Positions 14,034 through 24,636 of a stretch of 46,939 nt of DNA are shown piece after piece. The DNA lies in NCBI GenBank assembly GCA_903855945.1, contig CAIOAK010000019.1, positions 1-46,939 of the forward strand, in the 5' to 3' direction. The translations under genes and the position numbers were made by a program. Under the pieces are notes generated by a model, which worked only from the letters and a program-made list of their open reading frames with translations, made no database searches and was not told the origin of the DNA. Source of the DNA: an uncultured Anaeromyxobacter sp. GTDB lineage: Bacteria; Myxococcota; Myxococcia; Myxococcales; Anaeromyxobacteraceae. How positions within the stretch are numbered: position 1 is the stretch's first letter; each line of letters opens with the position of its first letter.

Positions 14034-14039
14034 ATTATA
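14034..14039 (-). promoter_or_regulatory. Perfect -10 hexamer close to the start codon
   Basis: On the minus strand TATAAT ends six bases before the ATG at 14028. Initiation would fall on or next to the start codon, implying a leaderless or very short leader mRNA. I see no good -35 at 17 bases, so confidence is low. Confidence 0.3.
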
Positions 14040-14047
14040 GTCGCGCC

Positions 14048-14665
14048 ATGCCCTTCCGCGTCCTGAGTGCCACCTTCCTCCGCACCGCCGTGCTCCGCAA
14101 GGACTGGCCGCCGCCGCCGGACGCCCCCGAGTTCGCCTTCGTGGGGCGCAGCAACGTGGGCAAGTCGTCCATGCTGAACGCGATGTCGCGGAAGAACGGG
14201 CTGGCGCGGGTCTCCAACACCCCCGGACGCACCCGGGCGCTCCAGTTCTTCGCGCTCGAGATCCAGCCGGCCGGTTCACGGAAGGTGACGCAGATCCGCT
14301 TCTGCGATCTCCCGGGCTACGGCTACGCCAAGGTCTCCAAGACCGAGAAGGCGCAGTGGGGTGGGATGATCGAGAACTACCTGCGCGAGCGGGAGCCCCT
14401 GCGGGCGGTGGTGCTCATCGTGGACGGGCGGCACGAGCCGCAGCCGGGCGACCACGAGGCGCTGGCGTTCCTGCGATCCACGGGGCGGCAGGTGATCGTG
14501 GCGGTGACGAAGATGGACAAGCTGGCCCGGAACAAGCGCATCCCCGCGCTGCGGGCGGCGGAGAAGGCGATGGGGCTCCCGGCGGGGGAGGCGATCCCGT
14601 TCTCGGCTGTGGAGGGGACGGGAACGGAAGCGCTCTGGACCCGGCTGGCGGAGATCGCGGGGTAG
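14048..14665 (+). CDS. engB: Ribosome-biogenesis GTPase EngB (YsxC/YihA)
   Basis: A 205-residue GTPase needed for 50S subunit assembly. G1 is GRSNVGKSS (residues 33-41), the G2 region is SNTPGRTRALQFF, G3 is DLPGYGYAK and G4 is TKMDKL. The length is normal. The start ATG precedes PFRVLSATFL; an in-frame ATG further upstream would overlap the divergent gene and add non-family sequence. Confidence 0.93.
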   Translation: MPFRVLSATFLRTAVLRKDWPPPPDAPEFAFVGRSNVGKSSMLNAMSRKNGLARVSNTPGRTRALQFFALEIQPAGSRKVTQIRFCDLPGYGYAKVSKTEKAQWGGMIENYLREREPLRAVVLIVDGRHEPQPGDHEALAFLRSTGRQVIVAVTKMDKLARNKRIPALRAAEKAMGLPAGEAIPFSAVEGTGTEALWTRLAEIAG

Positions 14666-14759
14666 GCTGGCAGAGGTCCGAAACGCCCTTCCGGGCGAAT
14701 TGTCTCCTGCTCAATCACCCTGGACGGTCCATATTGCGCCCCGATAGGGGCGTTGTCGC

Positions 14760-14919
14760 GTGTACCATACCGCGGCGTCGGGTTTGCGAGGCGCGTCAAA
14801 TCCCCCAGATCTTCGGGCACTTGAATGTGGATATCTCGCGTCGCCATAAATGACGTTTAGTCGTGGTACATCAAATAGTTAGGTCGGTACTGGACAGATT
14901 ACTAAGCGTGCCTTAAGTT
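14760..14919 (+). promoter_or_regulatory. Promoter region of the orphan SCPU pilin, homologous to the pilus operon promoter
   Basis: The 294-base gap after engB ends in a promoter-like segment. TGGACA (14891-14896), a 17-base spacer and TAAGTT (14914-14919) form a -35/-10-like pair. Upstream lie GTGTACCAT (14760), CACTTGAATGTGGA (14818-14831) and TCAAAT (14871). The same four blocks recur at exactly +4441 bases in front of the pilus operon, with identical spacing. The conserved GTGTACCAT and CACTTGAATGTGGA blocks are candidate activator sites. No other feature is evident in this gap. Confidence 0.6.
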
Positions 14920-14959
14920 GAGAGTGTCTCAAGGATAGCCCTCCACGAAAGGACGCAAT

Positions 14960-15436
14960 ATGAACCGCATCTCGAAGATTCTTCTCGCCGCGGCAGTTGC
15001 TACCGCGGTCGGCTTTGCCCCCCAGACACAGGCGGCCACGAAGACCGGGACGTTCATCGTCTCGGCCAGCGTCGCCAAGGCTTGCTCGACCGTGACGGCC
15101 ACGGGCGTCGACCTGGGCGTCTATGACCCGACGGGTACCGGAGACAAGACCGGAACCTCCACGATCGCGATCAAGTGCGTCAAGGGCACGGACTACACGA
15201 TCGGACTGACCTCGGCGAACAGCTGGAGCCTGAAGGGCCCCGGGGCCTCCGACCTGATCGCCTACAAGATCTACCAGCCGGGCGGCGTGATCGACTGGAC
15301 CGCGAGCACGCTCGCCGTCGCGGCCGTCACCAACAGCGCGGCGATCAACTACACCGCCACCGTCAAGGCGACCCAGGGGCAGGACGTCTCGGTCGGCGCC
15401 TACAGCGACACCGTCACCGTGACGGTCACCTACTAG
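14960..15436 (+). CDS. Orphan SCPU-domain pilin (archaic chaperone-usher subunit)
   Basis: A 158-residue secreted subunit with signal peptide MNRISKILLAAAVATAVGFA, cleaved near QTQA. The mature domain has the spore-coat-U/CsuA-B pattern: KTGTFIVSASVAKAC, DLGVYDPTGTGD, a second Cys in IAIKCVKGTDY, and an end in GAYSDTVTVTVTY. Such subunits are exported by Sec, bound by a periplasmic chaperone and polymerised by an usher. No chaperone or usher is adjacent; the complete locus starts about 3.7 kb downstream. Its 3' half is almost identical to the third operon subunit. A ribosome site (AAAGGA) precedes the ATG. It is followed by a strong hairpin, so it is probably monocistronic. Confidence 0.85.
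   Translation: MNRISKILLAAAVATAVGFAPQTQAATKTGTFIVSASVAKACSTVTATGVDLGVYDPTGTGDKTGTSTIAIKCVKGTDYTIGLTSANSWSLKGPGASDLIAYKIYQPGGVIDWTASTLAVAAVTNSAAINYTATVKATQGQDVSVGAYSDTVTVTVTY
15171..15436 (+). repeat. Duplicated 266-base segment, copy 1
   Basis: This segment aligns without gaps to 20722-20987. I count six mismatches by eye over 266 bases. Upstream of it the two genes are clearly less alike, so the border of high identity falls inside the coding region. Confidence 0.85.
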
Positions 15437-15463
15437 CTTCTCCTTCGGAACAGGGCTTTCCGC

Positions 15464-15491
15464 CGGCCGTCGGTCGCAAGACCGACGGCCG
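15464..15491 (+). terminator. Hairpin terminator after the orphan pilin
   Basis: A perfect 12-base stem (15464-15475 with 15480-15491) closed by a GCAA tetraloop lies 28 bases after the stop codon. The following sequence is only moderately T-rich (GTTCTACGTTCT), so termination may be partial. Confidence 0.6.
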
Positions 15492-15534
15492 TTCTACGTT
15501 CTCCAGGAGATCAATCCTCCGGCGCCTCGTCCGC

Positions 15535-16056
15535 TCACGCGCTCCTGGCCTCGATCTCCCCCAGGATCCGCGCGAGGCGCCGCTCCTCAGGCCCCACGTC
15601 GAAGCCCACAGCGCGCGCGCCGTCCACCACCGCCACCAGGAAGAGGAAGAGATCCAGGTGGTCGCGCGTCATCGGCTCGCCCGGGTGATCCACGAGCAGG
15701 TGCTCGATGCGCCCTGCCGTCGCCGCGAAGTCCCGGAAGCAGACCAGCTGCGGCAAGCCGGGGAGGGGACCCGTTCCGGCGGTGAGGGGCTCGAAGGCCA
15801 CCCCCACGTCGGCCAGGATCACCTGCCGCCCGTCGTCCCGCAGGAGGGCCAGGTAGGGCGCTCCGCTGTCCCGGTTCCGCGCCTCGGCCACCGCCTCGAT
15901 GCCCGCCCAGTCGAGCGGAAGCTGCTTCCCGGAGAAGACATCCATCACCGCCGGCGAAACGGAGTCGAGGAGCAGCGCCGCTGGGCGCTCCCGCACGAAG
16001 CGCTCGAGCAGGGTTCGCTGTGCGGGCCGATCGCGGAGCAGCTCCGGCCCGTTCAC
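15535..16056 (-). CDS. Hypothetical protein co-transcribed with greB
   Basis: A 173-residue soluble protein with no motif I recognise. It has no signal peptide or membrane segment. The middle reads APYLALLRDDGRQVILADVG and the C-terminal half is helical. The GTG start overlaps the greB stop (GTGA), so it is translationally coupled to greB. Confidence 0.6.
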   Translation of the reverse strand: MNGPELLRDRPAQRTLLERFVRERPAALLLDSVSPAVMDVFSGKQLPLDWAGIEAVAEARNRDSGAPYLALLRDDGRQVILADVGVAFEPLTAGTGPLPGLPQLVCFRDFAATAGRIEHLLVDHPGEPMTRDHLDLFLFLVAVVDGARAVGFDVGPEERRLARILGEIEARSA

Positions 16057-18680: not shown

Positions 18681-19130
18681 CTAGAAGGCGAATGTGACCA
18701 CGATCGTGTCGGCGTACTCCCCGGTTCCCACATCCGCTTGAAGGGCAGGGACCCGACCGAAGACCGGCACGCTCCGCTGGGATCCGGAAGGCCCCTGGTA
18801 GGTGCTCGTGCCCCCGCTGCCATCACCCCAGACCTGCGTTCGGCCGGCGTTCAGGTAGAGGTTGTAGCGGAGCCTGGACGAACCGCTCGCCATCGTCCTC
18901 GTGGCAAAACTTCCCGAGATTCCCGCCGAGAGCATGACCTCCGGCTTCGCACTGCCGGTGCACGAATAGTTGATCGACCCCGCTGCGTCCACGGGAAGCG
19001 AGGAGAGCACGTCGTAGGTCCCGAAGATGGGACCGGCCGTCCCCGTGATGGTGCATGTCGACGAATCGGCGCTCGCGATCGCGGCGGCCCAGGCCAGAGC
19101 CATCGCAGCAACAGTCCGGAGGTGATTCAT
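18681..19130 (-). CDS. Canonical SCPU-domain secreted protein
   Basis: A 149-residue secreted protein with signal peptide MNHLRTVAAMALAWAAAIASA. The mature domain is a textbook spore-coat-U domain: early Cys pair region (STCTITGTAG), GTYDV, INYSCTGS, LRYNLYLNAGRTQVWGDG, SVPVFGRVPALQADVGTGEY and an end in ADTIVVTFAF. It is more canonical than the three subunits of the divergent operon and may be a minor, tip or alternative subunit. It is transcribed away from the operon, so the 283-base gap 19131-19413 carries both promoters. Confidence 0.85.
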   Translation of the reverse strand: MNHLRTVAAMALAWAAAIASADSSTCTITGTAGPIFGTYDVLSSLPVDAAGSINYSCTGSAKPEVMLSAGISGSFATRTMASGSSRLRYNLYLNAGRTQVWGDGSGGTSTYQGPSGSQRSVPVFGRVPALQADVGTGEYADTIVVTFAF

Positions 19131-19200
19131 CGCGCCATCCCATTTCCGCCCACCATCACTCTACCCCAGGCCTGTACACCCCAAACGGGTCTTCCTGGCC

Positions 19201-19360
19201 GTGTACCATGCGAGCCTGGCACCGACTGCCGACCGCCCAAACCACTTTCAAAACTGCCCACTTGAATGTGGACTGGATGAGTCAACTCAGGTGTCACCTA
19301 ATCAAGTGATATCAAATGCCTAGACCAGACATGGACACATCACTAAGCGTGCCTTAAGTT
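19201..19360 (+). promoter_or_regulatory. Promoter region of the chaperone-usher pilus operon
   Basis: TGGACA (19332-19337), a 17-base spacer and TAAGTT (19355-19360) form the core; the flanking ACTAAGCGTGCCTTAAGTT is identical in the orphan pilin promoter. GTGTACCAT (19201), CACTTGAATGTGGA (19259-19272) and TCAAAT (19312) also recur there at the same distances. The rest of the gap toward 19131 must hold the start signals of the divergent SCPU gene, which I cannot define. Confidence 0.6.
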
Positions 19361-19413
19361 AAGGACAGCACAGAAGTGACGCGATACGTCTACCTCGACA
19401 CGCAACGGGACTG

Positions 19414-19896
19414 ATGCTCCGTAAGAAGCTTCTCATCGCCGCCACGGTTGCGGCCACCTTCCTCCTCGCCCCCCGGGTGGCGGAGGCGGCGAATCGCACG
19501 GCCACGTTCACCATCGGTTCCACCGTGGCGGGCCAGTGCTCGATGCTGGCACCGGCGAACGTGAGCCTGGGCGTCTATGATCCGTTCGGCACGGGAAACC
19601 TCACCGGCACCACGACGCTCCGGGTCAAGTGCATCAAGGGCACGGGTTTCAGCATCGCGCTCTCGTCGTCCAACTCCTTCCGGATGGCCGACGGTGCGGG
19701 CAATTTCATCCCGTACGCCATCAAGCAGCCCGACAACTCCACCAACTGGGAGACGACTCCGCTCGTCGTCCCCGGCAGCGCCATCACGGACAGCAGGAAC
19801 TACTACACCTACGTGGCCAACGTGTCGGCCGCGAAGGGCCTGCCCGTTCCCCTTGGCGACTACAGCGACGTCGTCACGGTCACCATCACCTACTGA
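19414..19896 (+). CDS. SCPU-domain pilin, first operon subunit
   Basis: A 160-residue secreted subunit with signal peptide starting MLRKKLLIAATVAATFLLAP and cleaved near VAEA. The mature part follows the same plan as the other subunits: NRTATFTIGSTVAGQC, VSLGVYDPFGTGN, LRVKCIKGTGFSIAL and the terminal LGDYSDVVTVTITY. It is the first gene after the conserved promoter, and the major or basal subunit is often encoded first in these operons. The next subunit starts 30 bases downstream. Confidence 0.85.
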   Translation: MLRKKLLIAATVAATFLLAPRVAEAANRTATFTIGSTVAGQCSMLAPANVSLGVYDPFGTGNLTGTTTLRVKCIKGTGFSIALSSSNSFRMADGAGNFIPYAIKQPDNSTNWETTPLVVPGSAITDSRNYYTYVANVSAAKGLPVPLGDYSDVVTVTITY

Positions 19897-19926
19897 ACGA
19901 GGGTTCGCCAAGGACACCGGGAAACG

Positions 19927-20478
19927 ATGGAACGCGGATTCACAGACGGGAAGAACCGGCGCGGCCTCCTCGGGCTCCTCGCGGCCGCGCTCCTTGCCAC
20001 GCTCGCCCTCGTCGTTCCCGGGACGGCTCAGGCGACGAACATCACCGATTCTCTGGTGGTCTCGGTCGGCAACTCCGCAGCCTGCCAGACCGCCAATCCG
20101 GCGGACGTGAACCTGGGCGCCTACAGCCCCACGGGGACCGGGGACATCGCCGGCACCACCTCGGTCGGCGTGCGTTGCAACGGCTGCATCGACGGCCAGG
20201 GCAACAACAAGTGCAATGGCAAGAACAAGCTCATGTACACGGTATCGCTGAGCTCGGCGAACGGCTGGAAACTGAAGGGCAGTTCCCCCACCGACCTCAT
20301 CCCGTACCGGATCTACAAGCCGGACGGGGTGACGCTCTGGAACGCGACCTCCGTCATCGGCCCGACCCAGGGCGCCAACGCCTGGGTCTACTACACCGCC
20401 AACGTCAAGGCGGCACAGGGCGTGGACGTCCCCGTCGGCAACTACAGCGACACCGTCACCGTCACCGTCATCTACTAG
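19927..20478 (+). CDS. SCPU-domain pilin with Cys-rich insert, second operon subunit
   Basis: A 183-residue subunit, longer than its neighbours. A signal anchor-like N-terminus (about 35 residues, GLLGLLAAALLATLALVVPG) precedes the mature domain. It has DVNLGAYSPTGTGD, VGVRC, then an insert CNGCIDGQGNNKCNGKNK absent from the sister subunits, before MYTVSLSSANGWKLKG and the end VGNYSDTVTVTVIY. The insert adds extra Cys residues and could form an additional disulfide or bind a ligand. A different ATG could shorten the N-terminus, but none gives a better signal peptide. Confidence 0.82.
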   Translation: MERGFTDGKNRRGLLGLLAAALLATLALVVPGTAQATNITDSLVVSVGNSAACQTANPADVNLGAYSPTGTGDIAGTTSVGVRCNGCIDGQGNNKCNGKNKLMYTVSLSSANGWKLKGSSPTDLIPYRIYKPDGVTLWNATSVIGPTQGANAWVYYTANVKAAQGVDVPVGNYSDTVTVTVIY

Positions 20479-20507
20479 CAGTTCACCGATCGTAGAAGGG
20501 AAAGAGA

Positions 20508-20987
20508 ATGCGCGGATCCACGAAGCTTCTCCTCGCCGCGGCAGTTGCTGCCGCGGTTGCTTTCGCCCCCCGGGCCGAGGCCCAAGCAACCAAGACCGGG
20601 ACGTTCGTCGTTTCGTCCACCGTTGCCAAGGCCTGCTCGACCGTGACGGCCACGGACGTCGACCTGGGCGTGTATGACCCCACCGGGACGGGCGACAAGT
20701 CCGGAACCTCGACCATCTCGGTCAAGTGCGTCAAGGGCACGGACTACACGATCGGACTGACCTCGGCGCACAGCTGGAGCCTGAAGGGCCCCGGGGCCTC
20801 CGACCTGATCGCCTACAAGATCTACCAGCCGGGCGGCGTGATCGACTGGACCGCGAACGCGCTCGCCGTCGCGGCCGTCACCAACAGCTCGGCGATCAAC
20901 TACACCGCCACCGTCAAGGCGACCCAGGGGCAGGACGTCTCGGTCGGCGCCTACAGCGACACCGTCACCGTCACCGTCACCTACTAG
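20508..20987 (+). CDS. SCPU-domain pilin, third operon subunit
   Basis: A 159-residue secreted subunit with signal peptide MRGSTKLLLAAAVAAAVAFA cleaved near AEAQ. It has the same mature pattern as the orphan gene at 14960 (KTGTFVVSSTVAKAC, DLGVYDPTGTGD, VSVKCVKGTDY, terminal GAYSDTVTVTVTY). The 3' 266 bases are about 98% identical to the orphan. A ribosome site (AAGGGAAAGAG) precedes the ATG. The 87-base gap to the chaperone shows no convincing terminator, so the operon likely continues. Confidence 0.85.
   Translation: MRGSTKLLLAAAVAAAVAFAPRAEAQATKTGTFVVSSTVAKACSTVTATDVDLGVYDPTGTGDKSGTSTISVKCVKGTDYTIGLTSAHSWSLKGPGASDLIAYKIYQPGGVIDWTANALAVAAVTNSSAINYTATVKATQGQDVSVGAYSDTVTVTVTY
20722..20987 (+). 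repeat. Duplicated 266-base segment, copy 2
   Basis: Partner of 15171-15436; ungapped with six mismatches by eye. Both copies are in the same orientation, 5551 bases apart. Confidence 0.85.
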
Positions 20988-21074
20988 AGCGGCGCCTGAC
21001 GATCCGCGCCAACCTGGCAGGCGAGGACGCGGTTTCATTGAAGGGGACTTGGCTGATATGCTAAGGCGCCTCTT

Positions 21075-21860
21075 ATGAAAAACCGCATCCCAGCGTCGTC
21101 ACAGGGCCGGACCGGAATTCTCCTCGCAGCCGCCACCGCGATGGTGATGTTCAGTCCGCCAGCGCTCGCGGCCGAGGTCCAGATCGTCCCGGTCATCCTC
21201 ACGCTGACGCCCACGGCGCGCAGCGCCGTCGTCACCATCAAGAACGACGGGAAGGCGGAGGCTCGTTTCGACCTCCAGGTGAAGGCCTGGTCCCAGACCC
21301 CGCTCGGCGAGATGGTGCTCGCGGAGACCGACGACATCATCGTCTATCCGCTGGTCCTCGCGATCGCCGCCGGGGAGGAGCGAAACCTCCGGGTCGGAAT
21401 CGCCACACCGTTCGAGGAGGTCGAGAAGACGTACCGGCTCATCGTCGAGGAGATCCCCCCGGCAGAAAAGCCCGAGGGAGCGACGGTGGTCCAGATCCTG
21501 AACAAGTTCCTCATCCCGATCTTCGTGACCCCTTCGAAGGCGGTCCAGAAGCTCGTGGTGGCCGATCTCGCCGACATCGCCGGCAAGGTGACCTTCCGCC
21601 TCGTGAACGAGGGAAACGTGCACGAGAGGCCCGATACGGTGAAGCTCCTGGGGCTCGGAGCGGACGGGAAGGAGATCTTCCAGCAGGAACTGGCCGCCTG
21701 GTACGTGCTCGCCGGGGGAGTGCGTGAGTACACCGCGACCGTTCCCAAGGAGGCCTGCCCTGCCGTCCGACAGCTCGTGGTCGACGTCACCCTCCCACCG
21801 CCCCGGCCGCCCGAGCCGGTTCGCGGCCGGCTCGAGGGCCCCGTGACGTGCGCGCCGTAG
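21075..21860 (+). CDS. Archaic-type periplasmic pilus chaperone
   Basis: A 261-residue exported chaperone with signal peptide ending ALAAE. The N-terminal Ig-like domain has EVQIVPVILTLTPTARSAVV and VVTIKNDGKAEARFDLQVKAW; the conserved interface region YRLIVEEIPPAEKPEG and ILNKFLIPIFVTPSK is typical of the CsuC/archaic (sigma) family. The second domain runs to about residue 245. It caps subunits in the periplasm by donor-strand complementation and delivers them to the usher encoded three bases downstream. The ATG is the only start that leaves a proper signal peptide. Confidence 0.9.
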   Translation: MKNRIPASSQGRTGILLAAATAMVMFSPPALAAEVQIVPVILTLTPTARSAVVTIKNDGKAEARFDLQVKAWSQTPLGEMVLAETDDIIVYPLVLAIAAGEERNLRVGIATPFEEVEKTYRLIVEEIPPAEKPEGATVVQILNKFLIPIFVTPSKAVQKLVVADLADIAGKVTFRLVNEGNVHERPDTVKLLGLGADGKEIFQQELAAWYVLAGGVREYTATVPKEACPAVRQLVVDVTLPPPRPPEPVRGRLEGPVTCAP

Positions 21861-21863
21861 TCC

Positions 21864-24341
21864 GTGCCCTGGCGATCTGTCACGGTGGCGGTGGCCGTCT
21901 GGCTCGCGCTGGGGACTCCTGCGGCTGAAGCGCAGGCCCCGCCCTCCTCGCCGCCGCCCGGCCGCACGCTGGATCAGAGCCTAGCGCCCATGGCGCCTCC
22001 CTCCGGCGCCGCCAAGGCGAGCTCGGGTCCCGGAGGGCGGGTTCAGCGCGCCTTCTTCGACCTCCGGGTGAACACCGTTCGCCAGGGCGAAACGATGGTG
22101 CTGCTCGGGGGCGACGATGTCTGGGTCGCGGTGGAGGTGCTGCGCGAGGCCGGCCTCCATGACTTCCAGGGGCAGCGGCGGTCGCAGGACGGCAAGGACT
22201 TCGTATCGCTCCGGAGCCTTGCGCCCGATCTCACCTTCAAGCTGGACGATCGCGCGCTCCGGCTCGAGCTCATGGCCGGGCCGGCGCTTCTCCCCACCGG
22301 GCGGCTGGAGATCGGCCAGGGGCGCCCGCCCAACACCATCATGGGAAACCTCACCAGCGCCTTCCTCAACTACTCCGCCCAGGTGAACCTGGAGGGCAAG
22401 CCTTCGGGATTCGGCGAGCTCGGTGTGAGTTCGGGACCGGCGCTCTTCACCACGGCCCTGTCGGTCGATTCCACCGGGATGGCCAATCGGGGGATCTCGG
22501 CCATCATCTACGACATCCTGCCCCGCCTGGAGACCGTCACGGCGGGCGACGCCATCATCACGAGCGACATCATCGGCAGCTCGGGCGTGGTCGGGGGCCT
22601 GACCTGGGCGCGGAACTTCCGGCTCGACCCGTACTTCGTGGTCGCGCCTCGCCCCTCCTTCACCACCTTCGTCAGCACCCCGTCCACCGTCGAGGTCTGG
22701 GTGAACAGCGTGAAGGTTCGCCAGGAGCAGGTCCCGTCCGGCACCCTCGACCTCGCCAACCTCCCGGTGGTGAGCGGCGCGAGCGACGTGCGCACGGTCA
22801 TCCGGGACTCGTTCGGGCGCGAGCAGATCTACGACCTTCGCACCAACCTGAACCCGTCGCTCCTCGCCGAGGGGCTGACCGACTTCTCCTACACCCTCGG
22901 GTGGGTGCGGCAGGACGTGGCGACGTCGAGCTGGAGCTACACACGCCCCGCGGCGCTCGGGAAGCAGCGCTTCGGGTTGAACAGCTGGCTGACGCTCGGC
23001 GGCATCCTGGAGGCGTCGCTCGACCGGGGCATGGTGGGTCCGACGGTCACCTTCGGCACGCCGATCGGGCAGGTGGATGCGATCGTCGCCGGGAGCGTGA
23101 CGCAGGGGCTCCTGGGCTCCTCCTGGTCGCTCGGCTGGTCGTGGGGAGGGCGTGAGTGGGGAGGGCTGATTCGCTACCGCGGCCAGACCGATTCGTTCGC
23201 CACCGTGATCCTGGACCCGTGGAATGACCGTGCGACGGCCGACCTGTATGCCAACTTCACCGCGTCGCCCCTCATGGGGTGGACCTTCGGCCTGGACGTC
23301 CTCGGGTCCCACTTCCGCGACTCCGGCGAGTCCGCATCCGGCACCCTGCGCGCGAGCTACTACATTGGCGCCGGGCTGACCGCCATGGGGTCGCTGACGC
23401 AGGTCATCGGAGGGAGCCAGCCCGGACCGAGCGGACAGGTGAACTTGACCTGGTACGTCGGGGAGTCGATCACGGTCTCCGGGGCGGCGGGCGGTGGCGC
23501 CCAGGGTGCGATCGCCAACGTCGGGGTCTCGAGGCCTTTGCCCATCGGGCCCGGATTCGGCTTCCAGGCTCAGGGAAACCTGCTGGCCGGCAACGCCATG
23601 GCCACCGGTCTCCTCCAGTACCAGACCGGTTTCGGGCGTTACGAGGCGCAGTACGAGCAGAATGGTTCATCCGCGTCCGGCTCGGTCCGCGCGTCAGGCG
23701 GACTCGTCTTCGCCGGGAGTCGATTCTTCTTCACGCGCCCCATCGAGGAGGGCTACGCGCTCGCCCGGGTGGGAGCGCCGGGGGTGACGACCTACCTGGA
23801 GGGATGGCGCGCCGGCGTCTCCGACGAGGACGGGGAGATTCTCATCCCGAACCTGCTCGCCCGGTACTCCAGCCGGATCTCCATCCGCCAGGAGGATATC
23901 CCCATGAACTACGAGGTGGGGAAGCTCCAGAAGATGGCTTCGCCTTTCTGGAAGGGGGGCGTGCTCGTTCCGTTCGACGTCATGCCGGTCCGCGCGGTGC
24001 GGGGCAGGCTGATGGTGAACGGTGACCAGAAGCAACCGGTCGCCCGCGGCGAGCTGGTGATGGAACAGAACGGGACCGAGGTTCGCGTACCGACGTCGGG
24101 TGAAGGGAAGTTCTTCATCGAGCGGGTGATCCACGGGCGCTACCCGGTCGAGGGCATCTGGAAGGGCGGCCGGTGCAGGGCCGTCATCGAGATCCCGGAC
24201 AAGGTGGGCATCCTCGACCTGGGGCAGATCGCCTGCGAGTTCATCCCCGGGAGCGCGCCGGAGGCTCCGCCTCCTCCGCCACCCAAGAAAGATCCGCCGG
24301 CTTCCTCAGCCCCGGCGAGCCCCAGCCCTACCTCTCGATGA
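21864..24341 (+). CDS. Outer-membrane usher of an archaic chaperone-usher pilus
   Basis: An 825-residue usher (CsuD type) that assembles subunits across the outer membrane. The GTG start lies three bases after the chaperone stop and gives signal peptide MPWRSVTVAVAVWLALG, cleaved near AEAQ. The N-terminal chaperone-binding domain (about 50-150) is followed by the barrel region with alternating strands, the plug segment near VEVWVNSVKVRQEQVPSG and PSTVEVWVN, and C-terminal domains with the Cys pair GRCRAVIEI and GQIACEF. A Pro-rich tail (APEAPPPPPPKKDPP) follows. The last 14 bases overlap the convergent small gene. Confidence 0.92.
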   Translation: MPWRSVTVAVAVWLALGTPAAEAQAPPSSPPPGRTLDQSLAPMAPPSGAAKASSGPGGRVQRAFFDLRVNTVRQGETMVLLGGDDVWVAVEVLREAGLHDFQGQRRSQDGKDFVSLRSLAPDLTFKLDDRALRLELMAGPALLPTGRLEIGQGRPPNTIMGNLTSAFLNYSAQVNLEGKPSGFGELGVSSGPALFTTALSVDSTGMANRGISAIIYDILPRLETVTAGDAIITSDIIGSSGVVGGLTWARNFRLDPYFVVAPRPSFTTFVSTPSTVEVWVNSVKVRQEQVPSGTLDLANLPVVSGASDVRTVIRDSFGREQIYDLRTNLNPSLLAEGLTDFSYTLGWVRQDVATSSWSYTRPAALGKQRFGLNSWLTLGGILEASLDRGMVGPTVTFGTPIGQVDAIVAGSVTQGLLGSSWSLGWSWGGREWGGLIRYRGQTDSFATVILDPWNDRATADLYANFTASPLMGWTFGLDVLGSHFRDSGESASGTLRASYYIGAGLTAMGSLTQVIGGSQPGPSGQVNLTWYVGESITVSGAAGGGAQGAIANVGVSRPLPIGPGFGFQAQGNLLAGNAMATGLLQYQTGFGRYEAQYEQNGSSASGSVRASGGLVFAGSRFFFTRPIEEGYALARVGAPGVTTYLEGWRAGVSDEDGEILIPNLLARYSSRISIRQEDIPMNYEVGKLQKMASPFWKGGVLVPFDVMPVRAVRGRLMVNGDQKQPVARGELVMEQNGTEVRVPTSGEGKFFIERVIHGRYPVEGIWKGGRCRAVIEIPDKVGILDLGQIACEFIPGSAPEAPPPPPPKKDPPASSAPASPSPTSR

Positions 24342-24636
24342 TCGCCGTCGGGGCGCCGTCGGTGAGGACGCTCACGACCACCGGTCCGCGTGAGCCGCTG
24401 GCGGCGGAGGTGAAGGTGGCGATTGCGGCGCAGGAGGCCGAACCTTCGGCGCCGCAGAACGTGGCGGCGGGGCCGGAGGTGGTGATGAAGGCGGCCCTCT
24501 TGTTCTCGGGGAGGCCGGTCTTCACCCGGGGGAGGACCTGCATCGAGACCGTGAAGGAGCCCTTGGCCGACCCGGCCATCGCCGGGGTGGCGAGGCTGAG
24601 GAGGAGAAGTGCGCTGGCGGTCCGGAGGAGCCTCAT
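24328..24636 (-). CDS. Small secreted protein convergent with the usher
   Basis: A 102-residue protein with signal peptide MRLLRTASALLLLSLATPAMA. The mature part starts GSAKGSFTVSMQVLP, which echoes the N-terminal strand of SCPU subunits, and contains two Cys (TFCGAEGSASC). It is too short for a full SCPU domain. It ends TDGAPTAIIER within the last codons of the usher on the other strand. It may be an unrelated periplasmic protein or a shortened pilin relative. Confidence 0.6.
   Translation of the reverse strand: MRLLRTASALLLLSLATPAMAGSAKGSFTVSMQVLPRVKTGLPENKRAAFITTSGPAATFCGAEGSASCAAIATFTSAASGSRGPVVVSVLTDGAPTAIIER

Follow-up and report, generated by a model that had tools for sequence, protein, structure and literature searches.

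The Csu pilus of Acinetobacter baumannii, the nearest characterised counterpart of the system described here, is made with SCPU-domain pilins, a PapD-like chaperone and an usher, and has CsuA/B as its rod subunit; in the assembled fibre, the donor strand of one subunit occupies the groove of the previous subunit (PMC9452303). Pilin genes that lie apart from their assembly operon are known from Bordetella, in which the fimbrial subunit genes fim2, fim3 and fimX are unlinked from the fimBCD genes that serve them and the paralogs have been diversified by homologous recombination (PMC12952627). For chaperone-usher pili of Anaeromyxobacter, our literature searches found nothing relevant, nor was their control found described in the searchable literature. 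The window analysed in this study, a stretch of 46,939 nucleotides from an uncultured Anaeromyxobacter sp. (contig CAIOAK010000019.1 of assembly GCA_903855945.1, a draft in 213 contigs), likewise carries an operon on the forward strand with three SCPU pilin genes identified by Pfam domain matches, g1 (19414-19896), g2 (19927-20478) and g3 (20508-20987), followed by genes for a PapD-like periplasmic chaperone (21075-21860, forward; PF00345) and an outer-membrane usher (21864-24341, forward; PF00577), the one usher of its kind found in the genome. A further SCPU pilin gene of 158 codons, hereafter the orphan (14960-15436, forward), has no chaperone or usher gene beside it; both are present in the operon, 4-5 kb away.

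Several features around the operon deserve mention in their own right. A divergent SCPU gene (18681-19130, reverse) encodes a signal peptide that leads directly to the first Cys without the donor strand that g1 to g3 possess; SCPU genes of this kind, divergent or neighbouring, are common in the family, and by donor-strand logic the product may be a single-domain tip subunit. Downstream, a secreted protein of 102 residues (24328-24636, reverse) starts with the donor-strand-like segment GSAKGSFTVSMQVL, lacks the length for a complete SCPU body and has no match in Pfam or NCBIfam; a homolog with 39% identity stands at the equivalent position in a related uncultured Anaeromyxobacter (G002, CAIQRS010000267), and the protein could be a pilus terminator or base subunit. 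The gap between g3 and the chaperone gene (20988-21074) is flanked by GGCGCCT and AGGCGCC, able to pair over long range as a possible processing or attenuation site, with a folding z-score of only -1.6. The usher is 50% identical to that of G002, compared with 81-89% for the neighbouring metF and engB, and the cluster (18681-24341; L050 in G002) lies to one side of the 24895-25401 gene here and to its other side in G002. The pilus cluster thus seems to move or to evolve fast at this place.

The orphan belongs to the SCPU family by a PF05229 score of 62.9 bits (family cut-off, 22.4), and its translation shows a signal peptide and an alternating-hydrophobic donor strand, TKTGTFIVSASV, before the first Cys, both read from the sequence and aligned with relatives, ahead of the pilin body. 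The structure predicted for it (pLDDT 86.4) finds its best matches in the PDB in CsuA/B, whether bound to its chaperone or assembled into the rod: Foldseek returned six CsuA/B chains of 6fq0, 6fqa and 7zl4 with E values of 7e-6 to 5e-5 and TM scores of 0.51-0.59 by query length, a match to the incomplete Ig-like pilin fold of that protein. The claim of the original prediction that the coding sequence corresponds to the third pilin of the operon is borne out, for in global alignment the orphan is closest to g3 (432/477 nucleotides, 137/158 residues), well ahead of g2 (334/477 and 75/158) and g1 (303/468 and 72/156). The count of 260 identical bases among the 266 of the 3' part (15171-15436) also proved exact, with differences at 15218, 15306, 15308, 15338, 15421 and 15424. 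From residue ~71 to the C-terminus the two proteins are nearly identical; their differences cluster in the signal peptide, in the early body and in the donor strand, which reads GTFIVSASV in the orphan and GTFVVSSTV in g3.

The genomic position of the orphan is explained by comparison with relatives. Its gene lies in a segment (14666-15534) between an engB-like GTPase gene on the upstream side (14036-14665, forward; PF01926 match) and orf173, convergent on the downstream side (15535-16056, reverse), which is without match in Pfam and NCBIfam and is conserved across 17 of 24 genomes in the family. In the two genus-mates that hold the junction (G002 and G003) and in one genome of the same family (G018), the engB and orf173 orthologs adjoin convergently, with a spacer of 18 to ~133 bp and no pilin in between. 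The comparison of synteny proposed earlier therefore identifies the orphan as an insertion in the present lineage. An origin from a mobile element was considered and rejected, the ends of the segment being devoid of terminal repeats and further copies being absent. BLAST of 14666-15534 against the whole genome had the three operon pilins and the proximal one of the promoter blocks described below as its only hits. A scan of contigs from other genomes with g3 as query found no relative, a scan with EngB placed the genome among uncultured Anaeromyxobacter MAGs and gave two named genus-mates, and no second strain carrying the orphan was found. The same junction in G003 contains a 117-bp element with 26-bp inverted repeats (L051:8036-8152), which has several more partial or full matches in G003 and one in G000 and is MITE-like, a hint that the convergent junction tolerates insertions. 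After the orphan stop codon there is a perfect 12-bp inverted repeat (15464-15491, forward), a possible terminator with a poor T tract. Its folding z-score is -6.1, and a consensus scan gave it no terminator score. Despite the poor T tract, the strong hairpin fits a one-gene unit.

Upstream of the orphan, the similarity to the promoter of g1 reported at a constant offset of +4441 was confirmed as four blocks spread across 160 bp, well above chance and in this combination seen nowhere else in the genome. Of the two outcomes that would have refuted the original proposal, chance-level promoter similarity and an orphan as close to g1 or g2 as to g3, neither was observed. Block 1, CGTGTACCAT (14759-14768, forward), is identical to its twin at 19200-19209. 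Block 2, CACTTGAATGTGGA (14818-14831, forward; twin 19259-19272), has two exact copies in the genome, one at each of these promoters, and with up to two mismatches 0.02 occurrences would be expected in the window. Block 3, ATCAAAT (14870-14876, forward; twin 19311-19317), is short and weak when taken alone. The proximal block, TGGACAGATTACTAAGCGTGCCTTAAGTT with the shared part given as TGGACAnATnACTAAGCGTGCCTTAAGTT (14891-14919, forward; twin 19332-19360), agrees at 27 of 29 bases between the two copies, and its 19-base core, ACTAAGCGTGCCTTAAGTT, occurs genome-wide with three or fewer mismatches only at the orphan promoter and at 19342-19360; it is absent from all 23 family relatives. The best local alignment of the two promoters reaches a score of 49, whereas 500 dinucleotide shuffles gave at most 31. 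Aligned without gaps at +4441, positions 14755-14955 are identical at 102 of 201 bases (next best place in the window, 77), and when the proximal block is left out, 14755-14890 still agree at 64 of 136 (next best 57, mean 35, s.d. 5 in the window). Between the blocks, agreement is 35 of 102 positions, a count good to one base, where chance would give ~25%; the leaders past 14920 and the ribosome-binding regions of the orphan are unlike those of g1. The two regions therefore share a set of short blocks whose spacing is fixed, and no continuous copy; the two promoters are understood as old copies in which the sequence and spacing of the blocks were kept while the rest has drifted. The proximal block contains TGGACA, which is -35-like, and a good -10 element is absent; a consensus scan called no sigma-70 promoter, and inspection by eye gave no sigma-54 -24/-12 match. 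At the loci of the family relatives compared, the operon promoter matched only weakly and locally, with all of the blocks missing, and direct reading of the divergent intergenic region of G002 revealed none of the four. A second dose, or a variant, of one subunit under the control of the operon, as was originally proposed, is plausible. We would go further only as speculation, and consider it rather unlikely, that the blocks are sites of an undescribed regulator of the upstream-activator type, dedicated to this pilus and with the orphan and the operon as its entire regulon, the orphan partnering ongoing pilin variation.

The silent divergence of the coding sequences indicates that the two halves of the orphan have had different histories. 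Between orphan and g3 (dN 0.07, dS 0.19 overall), dS falls from 0.547 over the signal region to 0.368 over the 5' part of the mature protein and then to 0.029 over the 3' part, which substantiates the earlier remark that the 5' half is less alike. The fall at ~15171 is at least 12-fold and is absent from the control pair g1/g3, for which the corresponding values are 0.813, 0.738 and 0.584. Codons for the same residue differ between orphan and g3 in 6/16, 11/37 and 2/81 cases in the three regions, thus in 17/53 before the boundary, where saturation would be ~0.43-0.48. None of 10,000 permutations produced a run lacking silent differences as long as the longest one observed, and a run test on variable codons gave p 0.005. 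A segment with almost no silent divergence between diverged flanks, with the control pair flat, is the pattern of gene conversion, and the tract so delimited (15171-15418, forward; 20722-20969 in g3) contains four base differences of which none is silent. Because dS is 0.37-0.55 in the 5' half compared with 0.03 in the 3' half, we interpret it as a recent recombination or gene-conversion tract lying over an old duplication. The data support a recent resetting of the 3' halves in either direction, with crossover also possible, and the promoter outside the blocks together with the 5' half of the gene, both well on the way to saturation, would be compatible with one old duplication given the sampling error. 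Selection on codons, RNA or protein could in principle lower 3' divergence in lieu of exchange, and the pair g2/g3 lends this some weight, its dS of 1.30, 0.885 and 0.231 across the three regions being reduced at the same end (3/42 same-residue codons differing); some of the contrast between orphan and g3 could hence reflect codon constraint, yet 0.03 is far lower. The lowered g2/g3 value points to an earlier exchange of its own or to a degree of constraint at this end of the gene. Considering also that g1/g3 lack the contrast and that the boundary near 15170 is sharp, we deem selection as the sole cause improbable. As a separate observation, the 3' halves of g2 and g3 show dN above dS (0.41 and 0.23), as if a partial exchange had been followed by fast protein change.

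Phylogeny constrains how the orphan came to combine the promoter of g1 with the coding sequence of g3. In a tree of 47 rows, the four donor-strand pilins of this genome form one clade (99/94) whose sister is the single pilin of G002 (100/98), and within it orphan and g3 are paired (99/92) with g1 and g2 outside; tandem pilins of the f2 family, tried as ancestors of g1 and g2, were placed elsewhere in the tree. The mosaic would arise if promoter, g1, g2 and g3 had been copied upstream and g1 and g2 then deleted, fusing the promoter to g3, and both the promoter blocks, which match those before g1, and the position of g1 and g2 in the free tree agree with that course of events. However, the whole-genome BLAST with 14666-15534 gave no sign that pieces of g1, g2, the chaperone gene or the divergent SCPU gene survive near the orphan, and the alignment shows no clear fusion junction. 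Moreover, in a tree of 23 rows, a clade of g1, g2 and g3 with the orphan outside costs 3.1 log units and is not rejected (p-AU 0.31; 0.30 on the 5' columns alone), and the operon of the nearest relative has a single pilin, so that duplication of the cluster with deletion is unneeded; it is possible but, in our judgement, doubtful. A promoter-pilin unit copied from a one-pilin operon could yield the same picture, and the orphan may simply preserve the ancestral order of promoter and pilin, g1 and g2 being later arrivals. Of the interpretation originally offered, duplication from the pilus cluster is thus supported, as is recombination or gene conversion of the 3' half, whereas copying the entire cluster and then deleting genes is not required. 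Alternatively, the orphan could be a relic without function, or a silent store from which pilin sequence recombines into g3. The exchange with g3, whose direction could be either way, speaks for this, but the frame is intact, dN is low relative to dS, the promoter blocks are conserved, the downstream hairpin is strong and a promoter would be needless for a silent store; we hold this to be the least probable of the alternatives.

Our preferred account, which we consider probable as a whole, is that of an extra CsuA/B-like rod subunit, which arose by an old duplication of promoter and pilin into the engB/orf173 site, later exchanged its 3' half with g3 and is co-assembled. The old duplication would have placed a promoter and a g3-like pilin gene in the convergent junction; purifying selection would then have preserved the pilin protein and, in the promoter, the four blocks with their spacing, before recombination or gene conversion brought about the exchange with g3. 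The product would be exported, held by the PapD-like chaperone of the cluster and polymerised by its usher beside g3, and would raise the dose or supply a variant donor strand, controlled by the regulator of the operon. The insertion, the promoter blocks, the tract, the protein family and the predicted fold are established by the present data; beyond these, we infer that the orphan is expressed, that it and the operon have a regulator in common and that its product co-assembles with g3. Going by the predicted fold, it would most likely serve the nearby usher as one more rod subunit. Orphan and g3 could share chaperone, usher and fibre neighbours, the orphan either adding dose or subtly altering the joint between subunits.

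Lastly, the locus has importance as a clean case of growth of the subunit set in an archaic pilus, from one ancestral pilin to four, in which one copy left the operon with its promoter architecture and recombination then homogenised half of its sequence. Comparing the paralogous promoters yields a footprint of where a regulator would be likely to bind. The cluster of G002 has a similar nearby position, a divergent SCPU gene and the same order of pilin, chaperone and usher; it differs in its one operon pilin, placed directly between promoter and chaperone gene, and in having neither an orphan nor the promoter blocks, while G003 lacks a chaperone-usher cluster at the corresponding place. Relative to Csu, the present cluster is distinct in its three operon pilins, the divergent SCPU gene without donor strand and the orphan, and a two-domain tip like CsuE was not recognised in the part examined here; although CsuA/B is the best predicted fold match of the orphan, sequence identity is about 18-19%. 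With Bordetella there exist analogies in a pilin gene that stands apart from the assembly operon and has a predicted promoter of its own, and in the paralogs reshaped by recombination. The Bordetella pilins are of the classical type I family and the orphan is SCPU; their copies are found elsewhere in the chromosome, whereas the orphan remains 4-5 kb from the operon and bears the promoter blocks of that operon. The orphan is a product of ordinary gene-family evolution and does not represent a novel type of system: it is the same kind of arrangement as in Bordetella, realised in an archaic SCPU system, to which the conserved spacing of the promoter blocks is an added detail.
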